This document shows, piece by piece, positions 19,806 through 27,656 of a DNA stretch of 38,846 bases. The position numbers and the translations under genes were made by a program. The notes beneath the pieces were generated by a model that made no database searches, was not told the origin of the DNA, and was given only the letters and a program-made list of their open reading frames with translations. Positions within the stretch are counted from its first letter, which is position 1. Each line of letters begins with the position of its first letter. Source of the stretch: Planctomycetia bacterium (GTDB lineage Bacteria; Planctomycetota; Planctomycetia; Pirellulales; JALHLM01); the NCBI GenBank assembly GCA_034440135.1, contig JAWXBP010000056.1, forward strand, positions 1 through 38,846. The letters are read 5' to 3'.

Positions 19806-20471
19806 ATGATGGGCACCCTTCGAATGAATCGTAGTCTTCTTGGCTTGATGACGATTGTCGGCGCACTGTTGCTGGCACCGCAGGCCGCCGTGGCCGAGCC
19901 GGGCCTGCTGTTCGATCAGAGCATCTACCAGGTGGCGCCGGGCGAGTCGTTCGACGTGCAAGTGCTGATCGACGGCGATGTCGCCACGGCCGCCGCGGAC
20001 GCCGTCGCCAACGGTCTGGTCAGCTACGGCTGGCAATTCGACTTCGATGGAGCCAAGGCGTCCGTCGACGGACTGGTCGTGCCGGCGGAGCTGAACTACT
20101 TCGCCTTCGCCGCCGGCGCGAGCATCACATCGGGCCCCGGTCTCGCCGGGGCGGAGGGAAACATCGATCAGGTTACGTTCACACCTTATCAAGACAGCCT
20201 GCTCGCCACGGTGACGCTCAAGAACCTGGCGCTCGCGCCGGATTCCTACGACCTCACGCTGAGCCTCGCGCCACACTTTCCCACCGAGCAATTGTTCGTC
20301 GATGGCCAAGGCAACGTACTCGACGACACAATCGTGCTGGGCACGGCCAAGGTGTTGGTCGCGGTGCCGGAGCCAGGCACCATTACGTTGGCCGGAATCG
20401 GCGTTTGCATCGCGGCAACGTGCCGCGCACGACTTGGACGGAATTCCCGGCGATGCGCGCGCTCATCCTGA
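19806..20471 (+). CDS. PEP-CTERM sorting-signal protein
   Basis: A 221-residue exported protein. It has a signal peptide (1-30, ending AVA), a beta-rich middle (~31-185) resembling cohesin-like domains (GESFDVQVLIDGD, LVSYGWQFDFDGA), and a C-terminal sorting signal: VPEPGT (187-192), a short hydrophobic segment TITLAGIGVCIAATC, then an Arg-rich tail. PEP-CTERM signals are recognised by exosortase, which is not encoded in the window. The ATG at 19806 has GCGAGG upstream; a second ATG follows one codon later. The last 19 bp of the gene overlap the start of the glycosyltransferase gene, so it is translationally linked to the operon behind it. Confidence 0.85.
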   Translation: MMGTLRMNRSLLGLMTIVGALLLAPQAAVAEPGLLFDQSIYQVAPGESFDVQVLIDGDVATAAADAVANGLVSYGWQFDFDGAKASVDGLVVPAELNYFAFAAGASITSGPGLAGAEGNIDQVTFTPYQDSLLATVTLKNLALAPDSYDLTLSLAPHFPTEQLFVDGQGNVLDDTIVLGTAKVLVAVPEPGTITLAGIGVCIAATCRARLGRNSRRCARSS

Positions 20472-21568
20472 CGCTCGGCACGCGCGGCGATCTGGAGCTT
20501 TTCCTGACCTTGGGCCGCGCGCTCTCCGCGCGAGGTCATGAAGTCACCGTCGCCAGTTCACCGTTCAACGCCGCAGCGGTGGAGCGCGCGGGTTTGCAAT
20601 TCGCCGCGGCGGGAAATGCCGGCACCAGGGAACAACTCGTCGCGGCCTTGCGCGAGGCCGGCCGCTCGACGAATCTTGTCGAACGGACTAGGTCTTTTTA
20701 TGAAGCCTGGCTGCGCCCGCAACTCGGGGCGGCGATTCAGGCCATCGCGCCGTTGACGAAGCAGACGGATGTCTTCATCAACAATCTGAAACTGGTGCTG
20801 CGTCGCGGGGAGAACGTGCTGCCGGGCGTCTCCGTAACCTACGATCCGCCATTGCAGATTGACGATTTGCCCCGATTCGGCGCCCAGCGCGCGGAAGTGC
20901 TCGACCTCGTGGCGATGCCCCAGGCGTTGATCGATCCGGAATACCGCTGGGACGCCCGTTATCGCTTCACGGGCTTCTGGACGTCGCCGGACCATGCTGA
21001 CAAAGACTCGCTACTGCCGCGCGTGCAGGAGTTCTTGGCGAAAGGCCCCGCGCCCATCGTGATCACGCTTGGGTCGATGGCATTTGCCGATCCTCGGGCG
21101 ATTTCCAGGTGCATTGTCGAAGCTCTCGCGTTGAGCGGCCGTCGCGGCATCGTTGTGCGTGGCTGGTCGTTGGAAGAACTCGACGAGATCGCGTCGCCCA
21201 ACATTCTCGTGATCGACGAAGCCCCGTATGAACTGCTGTTCGCGGGCGCGGCGGCCGTGGTGCATCATGGAGGCGTCGGCACGTTGGCGGCCGTGTTGCG
21301 AGCTGGGAAGCCGTCGATTATTCTGCCTCAAGTCGCTTGCCAACGCGTGTTCGGCGAGATCCTGCTGCGCGAACGGCTGGCCGCCGGCGTGCTGGCCGCC
21401 GACGCGTTGACGCCAACCGGCCTGGCGTCCTGCATCGAGACGGCGACAACGGACGACACGCTCGCCGCGTCCGCCATGAATTGGCGTGAACGATTGCTTC
21501 GGGAAGACGGCGCCGCGCGCGCGGCTGAGTGGATTGAAGCCCACCTGGAGGGCCAGCGTCGTGACTGA
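20453..21568 (+). CDS. GT1-like (sterol/macrolide-type) glycosyltransferase
   Basis: A 371-residue GT-B glycosyltransferase. The N-terminal domain begins RALILTLGTRGDLELFLTLG, typical of the sterol 3-beta-glucosyltransferase / macrolide / rhamnolipid group, with RGHEVTVASS (~27-36). The donor domain starts at PIVITLGSMA (~201-210) and contains HHGGVGTLAAVLRAGKPSII (271-290), the nucleotide-sugar binding signature. The family transfers sugars onto lipid or polyketide aglycones. The protein is shorter than usual (~400-430), mostly between the two domains. The ATG at 20453 lies inside the PEP-CTERM gene, and its end overlaps the aminotransferase by 8 bp (GTGACTGA). Confidence 0.85.
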   Translation: MRALILTLGTRGDLELFLTLGRALSARGHEVTVASSPFNAAAVERAGLQFAAAGNAGTREQLVAALREAGRSTNLVERTRSFYEAWLRPQLGAAIQAIAPLTKQTDVFINNLKLVLRRGENVLPGVSVTYDPPLQIDDLPRFGAQRAEVLDLVAMPQALIDPEYRWDARYRFTGFWTSPDHADKDSLLPRVQEFLAKGPAPIVITLGSMAFADPRAISRCIVEALALSGRRGIVVRGWSLEELDEIASPNILVIDEAPYELLFAGAAAVVHHGGVGTLAAVLRAGKPSIILPQVACQRVFGEILLRERLAAGVLAADALTPTGLASCIETATTDDTLAASAMNWRERLLREDGAARAAEWIEAHLEGQRRD

Positions 21569-22712
21569 CAACGCCGATCGATTCCTGATCGCCCGGGGCG
21601 AAAACGATCGGCTCTTCGATGAGGCCGGGCGCGCGTACATCGATCTCTTCAGCGCGCATGGCGCGGCGTGGCTCGGGCACGCGAATCCCGTCGTGGGCGA
21701 TGCGATCGCCAAACAATTGCGCCAAATCTGGAACACCGGCGCCATCTCGACGCCCATTCGCGAACAAGCGCAAGCGGCGGTCGAATCGCTTTTTCCGCCG
21801 TCACATCGCCTGGCCGGCTTCTATAGCACTGGCATGGAAGCCGCCGAGTTTGTATCGAGGATGGCGCGCGTCGCCACGGGGCGCAAGAAGATCGTCGGTT
21901 TTGAACACTCCATGCATGGCAAGTCGCTCGCCACTGCGGCGCTCGGGTGGGGTAACGACTGGAATCTCGACGCGCCGGAGTTAATGCGACTTCCGTTTGT
22001 GGACCAGGCGGACGAAATGGATATCGTCGCAAGCTTCGACGACGTATTGCGTGAACGAAACGTCGCGGCCGTGTTGGTCGAACCGTTGCTCGGTTCCCAT
22101 GGCGGATACGAGGCGAGGGCGGCGTTCTATCGCACGCTGGCGAAAATGTGTCGCGAATACGGCACGCTGCTCGTCTTCGACGAAATCTTGACAGGCTTCG
22201 GCCGCACGGGCGCCAACTTCTACTTTCAATCCGTCGACATCCTGCCGGATGTCGTATTGATCGGCAAGGCTCTCGGCGCAGGCTTTCCGGTTTCTGGCGT
22301 GGTTGTAAATCGGTCCATTGCGATCGAACCCGGCATGCTTCCAGGCAGCACCTTCGCGGGAAACGCGCTCGCGTGTGCGGCGGTCGCCGCCACGCTGAAT
22401 GAGCTAAACGCGATCAATGTTGTGGCGCGCGTGATTGCAATCGCCGAGATCATCGAACGCGAACTAGCGCCGCTCCGTGAACTGGGCGTCGGACTGCGCG
22501 GACGCGGGGCACTGTGGGTGTTGGAACTTCCGGATCACGTCGAAATGAAGCGGCTACTGGCGCAGGTCTATCGCCGGGGCGTCGCGATTGGCAGTAACGG
22601 TCGTTTCGTGCGATTGCTGCCGGCGGTGACGATTGAGCTGGAGCATCTCGGGCAAGCGTGTCGCGTGCTCGTCGAGACGATCCACGAGCAACTGGCGATC
22701 CACCATGGATAG
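21561..22712 (+). CDS. Class III PLP-dependent aminotransferase
   Basis: A 383-residue fold-type I enzyme. It starts at GTG 21561, with GGAGGG ten bases upstream; a longer frame to 21486 only covers the glycosyltransferase. Features are DLFSAHGAAWLGHANP (~28-43), STGMEAAE (~89-96, the phosphate-binding cup), Asp207 in LLVFDEILTGFGRTG, and the PLP-binding Lys236 in VVLIGKALGAGFP. The family transfers amino groups to omega-positions of small aldehydes (GABA, ornithine, diaminobutyrate) or mutates glutamate semialdehyde; the substrate here is unknown. Its position between a glycosyltransferase and two SDRs suggests it aminates a ketone or aldehyde made by them. Confidence 0.85.
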   Translation: MTDNADRFLIARGENDRLFDEAGRAYIDLFSAHGAAWLGHANPVVGDAIAKQLRQIWNTGAISTPIREQAQAAVESLFPPSHRLAGFYSTGMEAAEFVSRMARVATGRKKIVGFEHSMHGKSLATAALGWGNDWNLDAPELMRLPFVDQADEMDIVASFDDVLRERNVAAVLVEPLLGSHGGYEARAAFYRTLAKMCREYGTLLVFDEILTGFGRTGANFYFQSVDILPDVVLIGKALGAGFPVSGVVVNRSIAIEPGMLPGSTFAGNALACAAVAATLNELNAINVVARVIAIAEIIERELAPLRELGVGLRGRGALWVLELPDHVEMKRLLAQVYRRGVAIGSNGRFVRLLPAVTIELEHLGQACRVLVETIHEQLAIHHG

Positions 22713-23850
22713 TTCGCCGCCCAAGTTGTTGTTCGTCCTCTCCCAAGACTACGGCGAGTTGTTCAACGCGTTGTATTTCATCGCCGGCGCGCCGTTTACC
22801 TCCGTGTTCGCGCTGCCGCCGCGATTGCATCAAGTCAATGAGCGCATGCTGCCAGTGCCGGCTCACGCGTATCGCACGGCCAGCGAGTTGGCCGAGATCG
22901 TTGATCGAGAACGGCCTGACATCTTGATGCTGTTCTCCGGGTATCTGTTTGTCGTCAACAAGTTGTTGACGCAGGAAGCGCTCGCGGGCCTGCTGGCTGA
23001 GTGGCGCGGCCGCGGGATTCGCACAGTCACCAGCGACCCTTCGCTGGGACTGATCGCTCGCGGCGGCGCGTTGTTTCAGACGCATTTTGCCGCCGCGCCG
23101 ATGTTGGCGGACCATTTTCGTTGGTTGTCGGAGGCGTTCGCCGACGCCTTCCACGTTTACTTGGCGCCGGACGGCATCAACTCGAACCGACGACATGGAT
23201 CGTATTTCAATCCGAGCGAAGTCTACAGCGCGACCAAACTAGGACGCCGCGCCGCGAGGCTATCCACTTGGAGCGCGATCGACAGCGACCGGCGGCGCTG
23301 GCTATTCATCCTTTCGCCCGAGGACGACGCCATTCAAGCGGCGGCGATCGGCCGCACGGCCTTCGCGATCGACCTGGCCGCACGATTGCGCGACACGGAA
23401 CAAGCCGGGCGGCAGCCGGTGTTGATTGCCCCGGCGGCGTGCTTGCAAGCGGTGCAGGCGACCGGCATCGCGCCGGCGAATCTCATTGCGTTATCGGGGT
23501 GTGGCTATCTGCGGTTCATGCTCCTGCTGTACGATGCCGAGCACGTGTTCTATTGGAATCTGTTTTCCGCCTCGATGCTGGGCCGCGTGATCCATCAGCG
23601 GACCGTCTTCACCTTCGCCCCAGGGCATTTGGCGCACGCGCTGCGCGAGATCCGCGTTTTGGGAGCGCGTCACTTTTTCCTCGGCGAAGAACCGACGATG
23701 CTGAATCTCGACGAGCCGCTCGACGTAGATCGTCTTGTTGCGCTGGCTTCGACGCAACACGCGCGTTTGTTGGAACCGGTCAGTCGGTATCTCGCGCAAT
23801 CCCCGACGCCGGCGCAATTAATCGATTCATTCCTATCGGAGACACTCTAA
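22705..23850 (+). CDS. Unrecognised 381-aa protein, possible GT-B fold
   Basis: I do not recognise this protein. It begins KLLFVLSQDYGELFNALYF, with RPDILMLFSGYL at ~72-83, like the N-terminal Rossmann half of GT-B glycosyltransferases. A second half begins WLFILSPEDD (~202-211). It then has LIALSGCGYLRFMLLLYDAE (~262-281) followed by SASMLGRVIHQRTVFTFAPG (~289-308), which resembles the donor-site strand-helix pattern of GT-B enzymes. No catalytic residue can be named. The start is ATG 22705, overlapping the aminotransferase stop by 8 bp (ATGGATAG). The next gene begins 1 bp after its stop. I infer a second glycosyltransferase or an epimerase-like enzyme; confidence in function is low, but it is clearly a gene. 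Confidence 0.6.
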   Translation: MDSSPPKLLFVLSQDYGELFNALYFIAGAPFTSVFALPPRLHQVNERMLPVPAHAYRTASELAEIVDRERPDILMLFSGYLFVVNKLLTQEALAGLLAEWRGRGIRTVTSDPSLGLIARGGALFQTHFAAAPMLADHFRWLSEAFADAFHVYLAPDGINSNRRHGSYFNPSEVYSATKLGRRAARLSTWSAIDSDRRRWLFILSPEDDAIQAAAIGRTAFAIDLAARLRDTEQAGRQPVLIAPAACLQAVQATGIAPANLIALSGCGYLRFMLLLYDAEHVFYWNLFSASMLGRVIHQRTVFTFAPGHLAHALREIRVLGARHFFLGEEPTMLNLDEPLDVDRLVALASTQHARLLEPVSRYLAQSPTPAQLIDSFLSETL

Positions 23851-23851
23851 G

Positions 23852-24706
23852 ATGGCCGGCGCTGCGCTTCGCTCGGTACTGGTGACTGGCGCCTCGACCG
23901 GCATCGGCGCGGCGACCGTTCGCGCGTTGACGGACCAAGGCTTCGAAGTCTTTGCCGGATTCCGTACTCCCGAACATGTAAATGCGCTTTGCGAACATTG
24001 CCCTTCGCGGATTTTTACGCTACCGCTGGATGTCACCGACGAATCGTCGATTCATGCGGCGGTGCAATGCGTCCAGGTGAGAGCCGCTGGCCGTGGCCTA
24101 TACGGACTGGTGAACAACGCCGGCGTCGCGCTTGGAGGGCCGTTGGAGTGCACGCCGATATCCGTGCTGCGCCGGCAACTGGATGTGAACGTGCTCGGTC
24201 CAGCGGCAGTAACGCAGGCCTGTTTGCCGCTGTTGCGGCAGGCGACCGGACGAATCGTCAACATCAGTTCGATTTCCGGACGTGTCGCGTTGCCGTTCGT
24301 GGGACCGTACGCCGCTTCGAAATTCGCCCTGCGCGCGATGTCTGATTCCCTCCGCGCGGAACTGCGGCCGTGGGGCATCGAGGTTGTGATGATTGAACCA
24401 GGCCAAATCGCCACGCCGATCTGGGAGAAAGGCATCGCCGAATGCGAACGCGTGCAGGCCGAGTGGCCGGCCGACGCGCATGAATACTACGACGCCACCA
24501 TGGCGGCGCTCTTGAACCATGTGCGTCGCGGCGGAGGCCTGCCACCGGAGCGCGTGGCCAATGAAATCGTGAAGGCCATGACCTCGAAGCGACCTCGAAC
24601 ATGTTACGTCGTCGGGCGTGATTCGCGCTGGCTTCGTTGGATCGACCGGTTGCCGACGCGCTGGCGCGACGCTTTGATCACCAGGAGCCTGCCGCGTGGC
24701 CGCTAA
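23852..24706 (+). CDS. Short-chain dehydrogenase/reductase (first)
   Basis: A 284-residue classical SDR. It has the NAD(P)-binding TGASTGIG (12-19), NNAGVAL (~88-94), the catalytic Ser in NISSISG (139-140), and Tyr153/Lys157 in YAASK. PGQIATPI (~183-190) follows, as in many 17-beta-hydroxysteroid/retinol-type SDRs. The C-terminus is long and basic (RSLPRGR), with a possible membrane-facing helix (WLRWIDRLPTRW). The likely reaction is NAD(P)-dependent oxidation or reduction of a hydroxyl or keto group. The ATG at 23852 has GGAG upstream. The gene overlaps the second SDR by 11 bp. Confidence 0.88.
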   Translation: MAGAALRSVLVTGASTGIGAATVRALTDQGFEVFAGFRTPEHVNALCEHCPSRIFTLPLDVTDESSIHAAVQCVQVRAAGRGLYGLVNNAGVALGGPLECTPISVLRRQLDVNVLGPAAVTQACLPLLRQATGRIVNISSISGRVALPFVGPYAASKFALRAMSDSLRAELRPWGIEVVMIEPGQIATPIWEKGIAECERVQAEWPADAHEYYDATMAALLNHVRRGGGLPPERVANEIVKAMTSKRPRTCYVVGRDSRWLRWIDRLPTRWRDALITRSLPRGR

Positions 24707-25508
24707 CGACGGGAGTTATCGCGATCGCGTGGCCATCATCACGGGCGGTGGCGCAGGCATCGGCGCGGCGCTGAGCGAGGAACTCGCGCGGCGCGGCGCG
24801 CGCGTTGTATTGGCGGATCGCGACGCGGCGGCCGTCGAGGCCATCGCGGAGCGGATCCGCTCGACGCAGGGTGTCGCCACTGCAGCCGTCGTCGATGTCA
24901 CCGATGCCGCGGCGGTTGAAGCGTTGGTGCGAACCACGATCGCCGAATACGGCCGCATCGACATCCTGTTCAACAACGCCGGCATCGGCTGCTTCGGCGA
25001 CGTCCGTGAGTTTTCCATCGAGCAATGGCGGACGATCGTTGACGTCAACTTCTGGGGCTGCGTGCATGGCAGCCTGGCGGCCTATCGCTGGATGGCCGAG
25101 CACGGCGGCGGACAGATTGTGAACACCGCGTCGCTCGCCGGATTGGTCCCCGTGCCCGGCACGGTTCCTTATGCGGCGGTCAAGCACGCCGTGGTCGGCT
25201 TTTCGCTCTCCTTGCGAGCTGAAGCAGCCGACCAGCGTGTGCGCGTCAGCGTCGTCTGTCCCGGCCCGGTGCGCAGTAACTTTCACGACTCGATGATCCT
25301 TCCCGCAGCCAAGCCCGCGCCGCGCCAAGCGCCGAGCGACGCCGAAGACACGTTGGCCGCCGCTTGCGAGATCTTGCTTGGAGCGGAGCAGAATCAGCCG
25401 GTGATCGTGTTCCCCGCGAGGGCCCGTCGAACTTGGTGGAAATGGCGCTGGTTCCCTAGTCTACTGAGTTCGGCCCATCGCAACATTGTCGACTCGCTGC
25501 GCCGTTAG
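24696..25508 (+). CDS. Short-chain dehydrogenase/reductase (second)
   Basis: A 270-residue classical SDR with TGGGAGIG (16-23), NNAGIG (93-98), Ser146 in NTASLAG, and Tyr159/Lys163 in PYAAVK. The end is rich in Trp, Arg and Leu (RRTWWKWRWFPSLL), which could associate with the membrane. The GTG start at 24696 has AGGAG 9 bp upstream and overlaps the first SDR's stop. Two SDRs in a row suggest sequential steps, or oxidation followed by reduction, on one substrate. The last gene of the tight operon; 104 bp follow before the next start. Confidence 0.88.
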   Translation: MAANDGSYRDRVAIITGGGAGIGAALSEELARRGARVVLADRDAAAVEAIAERIRSTQGVATAAVVDVTDAAAVEALVRTTIAEYGRIDILFNNAGIGCFGDVREFSIEQWRTIVDVNFWGCVHGSLAAYRWMAEHGGGQIVNTASLAGLVPVPGTVPYAAVKHAVVGFSLSLRAEAADQRVRVSVVCPGPVRSNFHDSMILPAAKPAPRQAPSDAEDTLAAACEILLGAEQNQPVIVFPARARRTWWKWRWFPSLLSSAHRNIVDSLRR

Positions 25509-25612
25509 CCATGCCGCCGATCTTCGCGCTCTTGTCCCCCGGACACTCGGCGTGCGACAATTCCATTGAAAGAATATCTTCAGTTCGACTCACCGTATTG
25601 GGAGCGCGTCAC

Positions 25613-26119
25613 ATGCGAAACGCATTTGTTCTTACGGCGTCCATGACACTAGCTTGCCTGAGCGCGGTTTCCGCGGCGCCGGCGGCCGAAGTGCCGGCCA
25701 CGCCGAATCAGGTGGAGTTGGAGGCCAAGTTCGCCAAGACGATGTCGCATGCCGTGATGCGGGGCGGGTTCACGCTCGGTGAAATCAAGCCCGACCAAGC
25801 TCTCAAGGAGGACAAATACACGCTGGGTGAAGTCAAGAAACTTGACAGCGGCAAGTGGTTGTTTTCGACGCGCATTCAGTATGGCGATCACGACGTCACG
25901 GTGCCGTTGATCCTGGACGTAGTTTGGGCGGGGGACACGCCGGTCATTACGCTGACCAAATTCACGGTTCCTGGCTTGGGCATGTTCACGGCCCGCGTGC
26001 TCGTCTATGGAGACCAATACGCGGGCACCTGGGATGGCGGCGATCACGGCGGGCATTTGTTCGGCGTGATCGAGCGGCCGGAAAAGAAGGCCGCAGACGC
26101 GCCGGCGGAAACCAAGTGA
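25613..26119 (+). CDS. Secreted protein of unknown function
   Basis: A 168-residue protein with a signal peptide (1-24, ending SAAPAAE). The mature part (~35-160) is beta-rich and has no motif I can name. Recognisable features are ELEAKFAKTMSHAVMRGGF, a central TRIQYGDHDVTVPLILDVVW, and the closing YAGTWDGGDHGGHLFGVIE. The last of these resembles a lipocalin-like barrel strand with a metal-friendly His. The ATG at 25613 has GGGAG upstream. The GNAT gene begins 2 bp after its stop, so they are likely co-transcribed. Confidence 0.7.
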   Translation: MRNAFVLTASMTLACLSAVSAAPAAEVPATPNQVELEAKFAKTMSHAVMRGGFTLGEIKPDQALKEDKYTLGEVKKLDSGKWLFSTRIQYGDHDVTVPLILDVVWAGDTPVITLTKFTVPGLGMFTARVLVYGDQYAGTWDGGDHGGHLFGVIERPEKKAADAPAETK

Positions 26120-26121
26120 CG

Positions 26122-26673
26122 ATGACGCGTCCCTCGATTCTGATTGCGGAAACACCGCGGCTCGTCCTGCGCCATTTCGATCCGTCCGATACAGCCGATT
26201 TGCGTCCCATCCTGGCCGCCGCGGAGGTGATGCGGTTCAGCGTCAGTGGTCCGCTCGACGCCACGGCGGTGGGCACGTGGTTTACGCGGATCGCCGATTC
26301 TTACGCCCTGTACGGATTCGGGCATTGGGCCGTGGTACGGCGAAATGACGAGCGATTGTTGGGCTTTTGCGGGCTGTCGATGCAAACGCTCGACGACGGG
26401 AAGCAAGTCGAGATCGGCTATCGCCTGGCCCACGATGTGTGGGGACACGGCTACGGCACCGAGGCGGCCACGGCCGTGCGCGACTATGCCTTCCGGGAAG
26501 TGGGGCTCGAGCGGCTGATTGCGATCATCGACCCTGCGAATGTCGCCTCGCTGCGCATCGCGGCGAAGTTGGGCATGAGCCACGATCGCGATACAATGTA
26601 TTTCGGACGCCAGGTGCATGTCTTCGCTTGCCGCCGCGACGGCGAGGTTGGAACGAAAGGAACGGAACGTTGA
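26122..26673 (+). CDS. GNAT acetyltransferase, RimJ/RimL-like
   Basis: A 183-residue acetyltransferase. It starts with TPRLVLRHFDPSDTADLRPI (~9-28), which is typical of the RimJ/RimL group. Acetyl-CoA binding is shown by YRLAHDVWGHGYGTEAA (~95-111), then AIIDPANVASLRIAAKLG (~134-151). RimJ/RimL enzymes acetylate the N-termini of ribosomal proteins, but many relatives modify other small molecules. The ATG at 26122 is preferred; a GTG at 26116 overlaps the previous stop. Its stop overlaps the TTG start of the next gene by 4 bp. Confidence 0.85.
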   Translation: MTRPSILIAETPRLVLRHFDPSDTADLRPILAAAEVMRFSVSGPLDATAVGTWFTRIADSYALYGFGHWAVVRRNDERLLGFCGLSMQTLDDGKQVEIGYRLAHDVWGHGYGTEAATAVRDYAFREVGLERLIAIIDPANVASLRIAAKLGMSHDRDTMYFGRQVHVFACRRDGEVGTKGTER

Positions 26674-27656
26674 GTAGGGCATTCCTCATTGCGGCGCTTG
26701 CGCTGTGCTCCATGAGTGCGAAGGCAGCGGAACTGTCCAACGTCCGCGAGTTCCGCGAAATGTGCGACGCCTCGGCGATGATTCCTGTCGGCGATAACTA
26801 CTTCCTGGCCGCCAACGACGAGGACAATACACTGCGGCTGTTCGAGCGCGACGGTGCGGGATCGGCAGTGGCGACGTTCAAGTTGGACAAGACGCTGGGC
26901 GTCGGGAAGCCCAGCCCGGAGGTTGATCTGGAAGGCGCAGCCCAGATCGGCGATTTGATCTACTGGATCGGCTCCCACGGTAACAACAAGGACGGCGAAC
27001 CGCGGCCCAATCGGCATCGTTTCTTTGCGACGCGTTTGAGCGGCATCGGCGCGAACCTCAAAGTCGACCTGGTCGGCAAGCCGCAGACCGGGCTCTTAGC
27101 CGCGCTGGCGAGCGATACTCGGCTGGCCGATTGCCGCTGGAGTGAGCTCACGCAACTCGCTCCGGAGCAACACGGCGCCGTGAACATCGAAGGGCTGGCT
27201 GCTACGCCGCAAGGCACGCTATGGATTGCGTTTCGGAATCCCGTTCCGGCTGGTCAGGCATTGCTCGTCGAAGTGAAGAATCCCGGCGAGGTCATCAACG
27301 ACCAGCCTTTCGCGCTTGGGCGGATCGCGCGTCTCGACTTGGGCGGCAGTGGAATCCGCAGCCTGGAGTTCTGGCCCGCCGAGAAGGCATTCCTCATCGT
27401 CTCGGGACCATTCAACGACGACGGCGCGTTCGAACTCTGGCGCTGGAGCGGCGAGCCAGCCGACAAGCCGACGCAACTAGCCAATGGCCGCATCGAAGGT
27501 TACACGCCCGAAGCCGTGGCGTTCTTCGGCGACCGCGGGCGCGACCTCTGGGTGCTCAGCGACGACGGCTCGCGCAACGTAAACGGCGAAGACTGCAAAG
27601 CAGCGCCCAAGAAACAACGCCACTTCCGCGCCGGCTGGATCAAGCTCCCGGAGTAA
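26670..27656 (+). CDS. DUF3616 secreted protein
   Basis: A 328-residue protein with a signal peptide (1-20, ending SAKAAE) and a DUF3616 domain. Typical features are MIPVGDNYFLAANDEDNTLR (~37-56), VDLEGAAQIGDLIYWIGSHG (~90-109), AVNIEGLAATPQGTLWIAFR (~170-189), and a final VLSDDGS (~298-304). The fold is probably a beta-propeller, as in the strictosidine synthase-like group. Substrate unknown. The TTG start at 26670 overlaps the GNAT stop (TTGA) and has AAGGAA upstream. It is separated from larB by a 40-bp convergent gap. Confidence 0.78.
   Translation: MSRAFLIAALALCSMSAKAAELSNVREFREMCDASAMIPVGDNYFLAANDEDNTLRLFERDGAGSAVATFKLDKTLGVGKPSPEVDLEGAAQIGDLIYWIGSHGNNKDGEPRPNRHRFFATRLSGIGANLKVDLVGKPQTGLLAALASDTRLADCRWSELTQLAPEQHGAVNIEGLAATPQGTLWIAFRNPVPAGQALLVEVKNPGEVINDQPFALGRIARLDLGGSGIRSLEFWPAEKAFLIVSGPFNDDGAFELWRWSGEPADKPTQLANGRIEGYTPEAVAFFGDRGRDLWVLSDDGSRNVNGEDCKAAPKKQRHFRAGWIKLPE

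Follow-up and report, generated by a model that had tools for sequence, protein, structure and literature searches.

The window analysed here, a contig of 38,846 nucleotides from a Planctomycetia bacterium (GenBank assembly GCA_034440135.1, contig JAWXBP010000056.1), harbors at positions 19806-25508 six closely packed genes for a PEP-CTERM-type exported protein, a GT1-type glycosyltransferase (P0002), a class III pyridoxal phosphate (PLP)-dependent aminotransferase, a protein of an unnamed family termed P4, and two short-chain dehydrogenases/reductases (SDR1 and SDR2). The most valuable result of the analysis is the P4 family itself, which recurs together with aminotransferases across several phyla and whose members are probable glycosyltransferases. 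As to the operon as a whole, there is about an even chance that it constitutes a small tailoring module, which combines an oxidation-amination sequence with glycosylation to furnish a glycan or glycolipid of the cell envelope. This reading builds on features discernible from sequence, namely the gene order, the intact motifs, the GT-B fold predicted for P4 and the recurrent pairing of P4 with aminotransferases. It is supported by the compact six-gene architecture, the first half of which is conserved and selected within the genus, by a structural model of P4 with GT1-family glycosyltransferases as best matches, by the proximity of P4 to a class III aminotransferase in eight of nine genomes and to a GMC oxidoreductase in six, and by the glycan-type character of its other neighbors along with exosortase genes in eight of the nine genomes.

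P4 (22705-23850) yielded no match in Pfam, NCBIfam or the sequences of the PDB, and none was found on plasmids and viral contigs. The family was seeded by a single distant relative from the Planctomycetota, and the resulting two-row alignment led to eleven loci in named genome contigs, which belong to Planctomycetota, gammaproteobacteria including Halioglobus, metagenome-assembled genomes (MAGs) of Rhodospirillaceae and Omnitrophota, and a Bryobacterales fragment. Strictly conserved positions in an alignment of 15 rows include G17, D111-P112, F282-Y283-W284-N285, S288 and G307-H308. When the profile of this alignment was searched, neither Pfam nor the PDB sequences returned a credible match, and assignment of P4 to an already named family was rejected given the empty results in Pfam, NCBIfam, the PDB sequence profile and plasmids.

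The AlphaFold model of P4 calculated from the 15-row alignment reached a predicted local distance difference test (pLDDT) score of 85.4; an earlier model, which drew on two sequences only, was of low quality (pLDDT 44) and was set aside. In VIA-align, glycosyltransferases occupy the top rows, and the plant enzyme UGT74AN2 aligns over 327 of 381 residues (Z 20.8, root-mean-square deviation 3.7), while Foldseek matches also include EarP and UDP-GlcNAc 2-epimerases. Two Rossmann-like domains of the model correspond to solved GT-B structures over nearly the whole length, so that the conjecture of the earlier note, which had regarded the unrecognised gene as a possible GT-B enzyme, is borne out at the level of predicted structure. 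The overall fold would be shared with GT1/UGT enzymes such as GtfB, sterol glucosyltransferase and the macrolide glycosyltransferases, but P4 displays no detectable sequence similarity to GT1, and its classification as a divergent GT1 was dismissed for want of a Pfam match and a profile signal. P4 is hence GT-B by modelled fold and not GT1 by sequence, and the family is probably a glycosyltransferase family that is unmatched in Pfam and NCBIfam but may already bear a CAZy number.

The family comprises more than 20 members from Planctomycetota, Pseudomonadota and Omnitrophota, in addition to the fragment from Acidobacteriota, with one to four copies per genome in nine genomes (the Bryobacterales fragment not counted). 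Several copies form the C-terminal domain of proteins with tetratricopeptide repeats (TPR). This arrangement is reminiscent of O-GlcNAc transferase (GT41), which has a TPR-GT-B layout. On the other hand, no GT41 match was obtained in Pfam, where TPR-fused members show only TPR and TPR-like repeats and the P4 alignment has no credible match, and P4 of the window is devoid of TPR.

The neighborhood search addressed the co-occurrence of P4 and class III aminotransferases suggested in the earlier note. In every one of the nine genomes except G203, an aminotransferase of this class is encoded no more than about 2 kb away from a P4 gene. Five of these enzymes are of the window type, sharing 42-72% identity with one another, and in four of the five the gene is adjacent to and codirectional with P4, while the two are divergent in the Omnitrophota contig. 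Relatives of the aminotransferase with 44-50% identity reside beside P4 in four other genomes, and the contig of the alphaproteobacterial Rhodospirillaceae MAG features the GT1-aminotransferase-P4 order of the window. This genome set was assembled by way of P4 and is thus a biased sample; an unbiased check of 293 further Planctomycetota genomes, with scoring of at most six candidates in each, revealed no aminotransferase of such similarity (E at most 1e-75). The association holds where P4 occurs but is rare in planctomycetes at large, as P4 was detected in at least two of 392 sampled Planctomycetota genomes (at most four candidates scored in each), which does not support a widespread distribution in this group.

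The remaining neighbors of P4 are largely of the glycan type and encompass GT2 and GT2-GT4 glycosyltransferases, an O-acyltransferase, AlgX-like proteins, a hexapeptide acetyltransferase, a PseC-like DegT aminotransferase and a sulfotransferase; radical SAM-SPASM proteins, NodU-type carbamoyltransferases and Asp/Arg-hydroxylase-like proteins are found as well. In place of SDRs, the clusters of the relatives usually have a GMC flavoprotein as oxidoreductase. A resemblance of the GT2-GT4 proteins to TIGR03087, a glycosyltransferase of the PEP-CTERM/XrtA system, stays below the cut-off of that model, and none of the XrtA-associated families exceeded its cut-off among the proteins scanned.

Some of these loci exhibit further peculiarities. 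The clusters L046-L049, L055 and L056 from gammaproteobacteria and Planctomycetota contain TPR-P4, radical SAM-SPASM and GMC oxidoreductase genes, several of them also NodU-type carbamoyltransferase and AlgX-like genes, which gives the impression of a large, as yet unnamed biosynthetic cluster shared between phyla. An extra C-terminal domain is present on some P4 proteins (L046 3916-5598, L048 10270-11805, L055 16490-18808) and on radical SAM and AlgX-like proteins of the same clusters, in one case in tandem. In the Bryobacterales contig (L017, 3752 bp), a partial P4 frame adjoins a collagen-repeat protein with a CBM96 domain.

Table 1. Genes of the six-gene unit and features of their products.
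Product	Position	Strand	Features
PEP-CTERM-type exported protein	19806..20471	+	Signal peptide, VPEP at residue 187, hydrophobic stretch, Arg-rich tail
GT1-type (EryCIII/GT28-like) glycosyltransferase, P0002	20453..21568	+	PF06722, PF03033, HHGGVGT
Class III PLP aminotransferase	21561..22712	+	PF00202, probable Schiff-base lysine K236
P4, predicted GT-B fold protein of unnamed family	22705..23850	+	Motifs DYGEL, TSDP, FYWNxxSxS, PGH; model fold
SDR1, short-chain dehydrogenase/reductase	23852..24706	+	PF00106; TGASTGIG, S140, YAASK
SDR2, short-chain dehydrogenase/reductase	24696..25508	+	PF00106; TGGGAGIG, S146, YAAVK

All six genes and their overlaps were recovered exactly as described in the earlier note, with spacings of -19, -8, -8, +1 and -11 bp between the open reading frames (ORFs); the translational coupling named in that note is putative, as sequence by itself does not demonstrate it. 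The ATG of the GT1 gene (20453) precedes the stop of the PEP-CTERM gene (20471), so that 19 bp are shared. Overlaps of 8 bp connect the GT1 stop (21568) with the GTG of the aminotransferase gene (21561; GTGACTGA) and the aminotransferase stop (22712) with the ATG of P4 (22705; ATGGATAG). The P4 stop (23850) and the ATG of SDR1 (23852) are separated by 1 bp, and the SDR1 stop (24706) and the GTG of SDR2 (24696) share 11 bp. Genes for a CDP-alcohol phosphatidyltransferase and a CPBP-type membrane protease are located upstream, 174 bp 5' of the PEP-CTERM gene. Position 25508 is most likely the 3' end of the operon, because the next gene probably begins at ATG 25613: the ATG at 25511, from which the downstream ORF is listed, has no counterpart in the same-genus genome G404, where similarity starts at 25516. 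Further 3', the region 25855-27656 carries genes for a GNAT acetyltransferase and a DUF3616 protein, listed as overlapping ORFs with doubtful start positions.

G404 preserves the order phosphatidyltransferase, protease, PEP-CTERM, GT1 and aminotransferase. The operon layout exceeds chance, since G404 retains the identical -19 and -8 overlaps, the three proteins of the operon are 84-89% identical to those of the window (88.6% for the PEP-CTERM protein), and ratios of nonsynonymous to synonymous substitution (dN/dS) amount to 0.15 for PEP-CTERM and 0.16 each for GT1 and aminotransferase; the PEP-CTERM-GT1-aminotransferase half is therefore, judged from these sequences, under purifying selection in the genus. 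Thus, the first three genes of the unit proposed in the earlier note are kept in a relative, but P4 and, in a DNA search, both SDRs were not found in this 83% complete genome. This would agree with a rather loose directon, in which only the first three genes form one unit and P4 and the SDRs are later additions that work elsewhere, or in which P4 has a GT-B fold but is non-catalytic or resembles an epimerase. In G404, unrelated sequence with an IS110-like fragment (by eye) precedes the downstream gene, and UDP-GlcNAc 2-epimerases occur among the fold matches of P4. Nevertheless, such a directon appears quite unlikely: the aminotransferase-P4 tandem recurs in other phyla, the two genes overlap by 8 bp in the window, and glycosyltransferases are the best fold matches in VIA-align. 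Moreover, the G404 contig ends inside the aminotransferase gene and the genome is incomplete, so that P4 and the SDRs may or may not belong to the unit genus-wide. At about 3636-4498 of L073 (G404:C174), where the window has SDR2, zinc-protease-like and IS110-like transposase fragments are discernible by eye.

In the proposed tailoring module, a hydroxyl group on a sugar, or on a lipid linked to a sugar, would be oxidised to the carbonyl by one or both SDRs and then converted to an amine by the class III aminotransferase, while the GT1-type enzyme and P4, as two GT-B enzymes, would assemble the sugar chain or lengthen it. Export would bring the co-expressed PEP-CTERM protein to the same surface layer, in which it would act or to which it would be attached. 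We infer the reaction order, the direction of the SDRs, the product and the acceptor, for which a glycan, a lipid and the protein itself are all candidates. No publication on the complete gene set emerged from a literature search. A similar logic governs aminoglycoside formation: in gentamicin biosynthesis, the dehydrogenase GenQ and the class III PLP aminotransferase GenB1 replace a sugar hydroxyl by an amine at C6', and KanQ and KanB constitute the corresponding C6' amination pair for kanamycin (PMC4039129, PMC5461906). These systems share with the window, and with the surroundings of P4 in general, the pairing of an oxidoreductase with a class III aminotransferase in clusters with glycosyltransferases, so that the operon can be read as a GenQ/GenB1-like module in which SDRs take the place of the flavoenzyme. 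They differ in that the window operon has SDRs only and no flavin dehydrogenase, GMC enzymes being present in six relatives, and in that no 2-deoxystreptamine genes were seen; the likeness is one of enzyme class. The oxidation, amination and glycosylation scheme of the earlier note is hence plausible and has a precedent, but its substrates, product and SDR direction are conjectural.

The enzyme identities assigned in that note to the GT1-type glycosyltransferase, the aminotransferase and both SDRs agree with Pfam, and family motifs are intact wherever checked. P0002 matches PF06722 (7e-12; 45.9 bits, cut-off 31.7) and PF03033 (9e-7; 29.4 bits, cut-off 26.2), resembles GT1/UGT enzymes in its EryCIII/GT28 domains, and contains the donor motif HxGGxGT as HHGGVGT at residue 271 (H271), with D13 as candidate base. 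A paralogue with 42% identity in the same genome (G000:C488 9194-11278) was rejected as a second operon copy, as it forms a separate two-gene unit with an APH-like kinase gene 3 bp away. The aminotransferase matches PF00202 (Aminotran_3; 1.1e-68, 232 bits, residues 8-373) with its PLP lysine in IGKALGAG, and the SDRs match PF00106 (2.8e-45 for SDR1 and 7.7e-57 for SDR2), sharing 31% identity across 165 residues. The aminotransferase passed none of the named class III models listed from NCBIfam (ArgD, LysJ, BioA, GabT, daptide); its best score was 205 bits against a cut-off of 410 for argD, and the daptide model gave 156 against 450.

These assignments bear on whether the operon yields an amino-modified lipid instead, e.g., an aminated long-chain alcohol or a sphingoid or terpenoid head that is subsequently glycosylated by the sterol-glucosyltransferase-like GT1 enzyme, which we regard as unlikely; the acceptor of lipid nature and the product envisaged in the earlier note, an amino-modified glycolipid, would likewise be conjecture. 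The closest PDB sequences of P0002 are sterol 3-beta-glucosyltransferases and GtfB, but GT1 enzymes with very different acceptors have a conserved C-terminal half. SDR1 scores 147 bits with the model of 3-ketodihydrosphingosine reductase (KdsR) from bacterial sphingolipid clusters, which is far below the cut-off of 400. Asp/Arg-hydroxylase-like proteins, whose Pfam family includes LpxO, are encoded near P4 in three genomes, and the Omnitrophota cluster contains an AMP-binding acyl-ligase-like gene. On the contrary, the operon is devoid of acyl carrier, AONS-type and acyl-transfer genes, and most P4 clusters are glycan-like.

The PEP-CTERM-type protein shows the correct C-terminal layout, but its score with PF07589 (20.0 bits) falls just short of the gathering cut-off (20.7), so that the label of the earlier note is better taken as a probable one. 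The source genome encodes two exosortases (PF09721; 7e-60 and 2e-51), and together with their frequency in P4 genomes this recalls PEP-CTERM/exosortase (EpsH) exopolysaccharide systems; as a difference, no exosortase gene was seen adjoining P4 in other genomes, nor a PEP-CTERM gene by a strict pattern. A role of the glycosyltransferases in decorating the co-encoded protein, or surface proteins generally, with an amino sugar produced by the SDRs and the aminotransferase is improbable. Most PEP-CTERM genes constitute single-gene operons (PMC1569441), while the one considered here overlaps the GT1 gene in two species. In addition, large repeat or surface proteins are encoded near P4 in the Rhodospirillaceae, Halioglobus and Bryobacterales contigs, and the TPR-fused P4 proteins recall protein O-GlcNAc transferase; yet the repeat proteins differ in kind, P4 of the window has no TPR domain, and no PEP-CTERM gene was seen near other P4 genes by the strict pattern, which also missed the window's own protein. 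A further reading, possible but highly improbable, is that one transcript encodes both the PEP-CTERM cargo and the enzymes for its anchor, a glycan or glycolipid with an amino sugar whose amine would accept the protein after cleavage by exosortase.

Several points weigh against the tailoring module. SDRs as often reduce as oxidise, and pathway logic by itself is weak evidence. The GT1 donor motif HxGGxGT is absent from P4, in which FYWNxxSxS occupies the corresponding place (by eye), comparison of P4 with the GT1 profile in hhalign gave a probability of 0.1% and no alignment, and its activity as a glycosyltransferase is predicted from modelled fold and gene context. No operon enzyme scored above the cut-off of any NCBIfam model listed, and therefore no substrate can be named for these enzymes. 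In about 300 kb of sequence surrounding the P4 genes of other genomes, the strict pattern revealed no PEP-CTERM protein, and G404 adds the missing P4 and SDR genes as well as the unrelated sequence ahead of the downstream gene.

Taken together, a predicted fold, characteristic motifs and the aminotransferase as recurrent partner are now available for the P4 family, a probable new glycosyltransferase family, which renders its members, unmatched in Pfam and NCBIfam, recognisable and testable. Moreover, by linking a PEP-CTERM protein with amino-sugar-type enzymes, the operon provides a rare concrete lead on the attachment target of exosortases.

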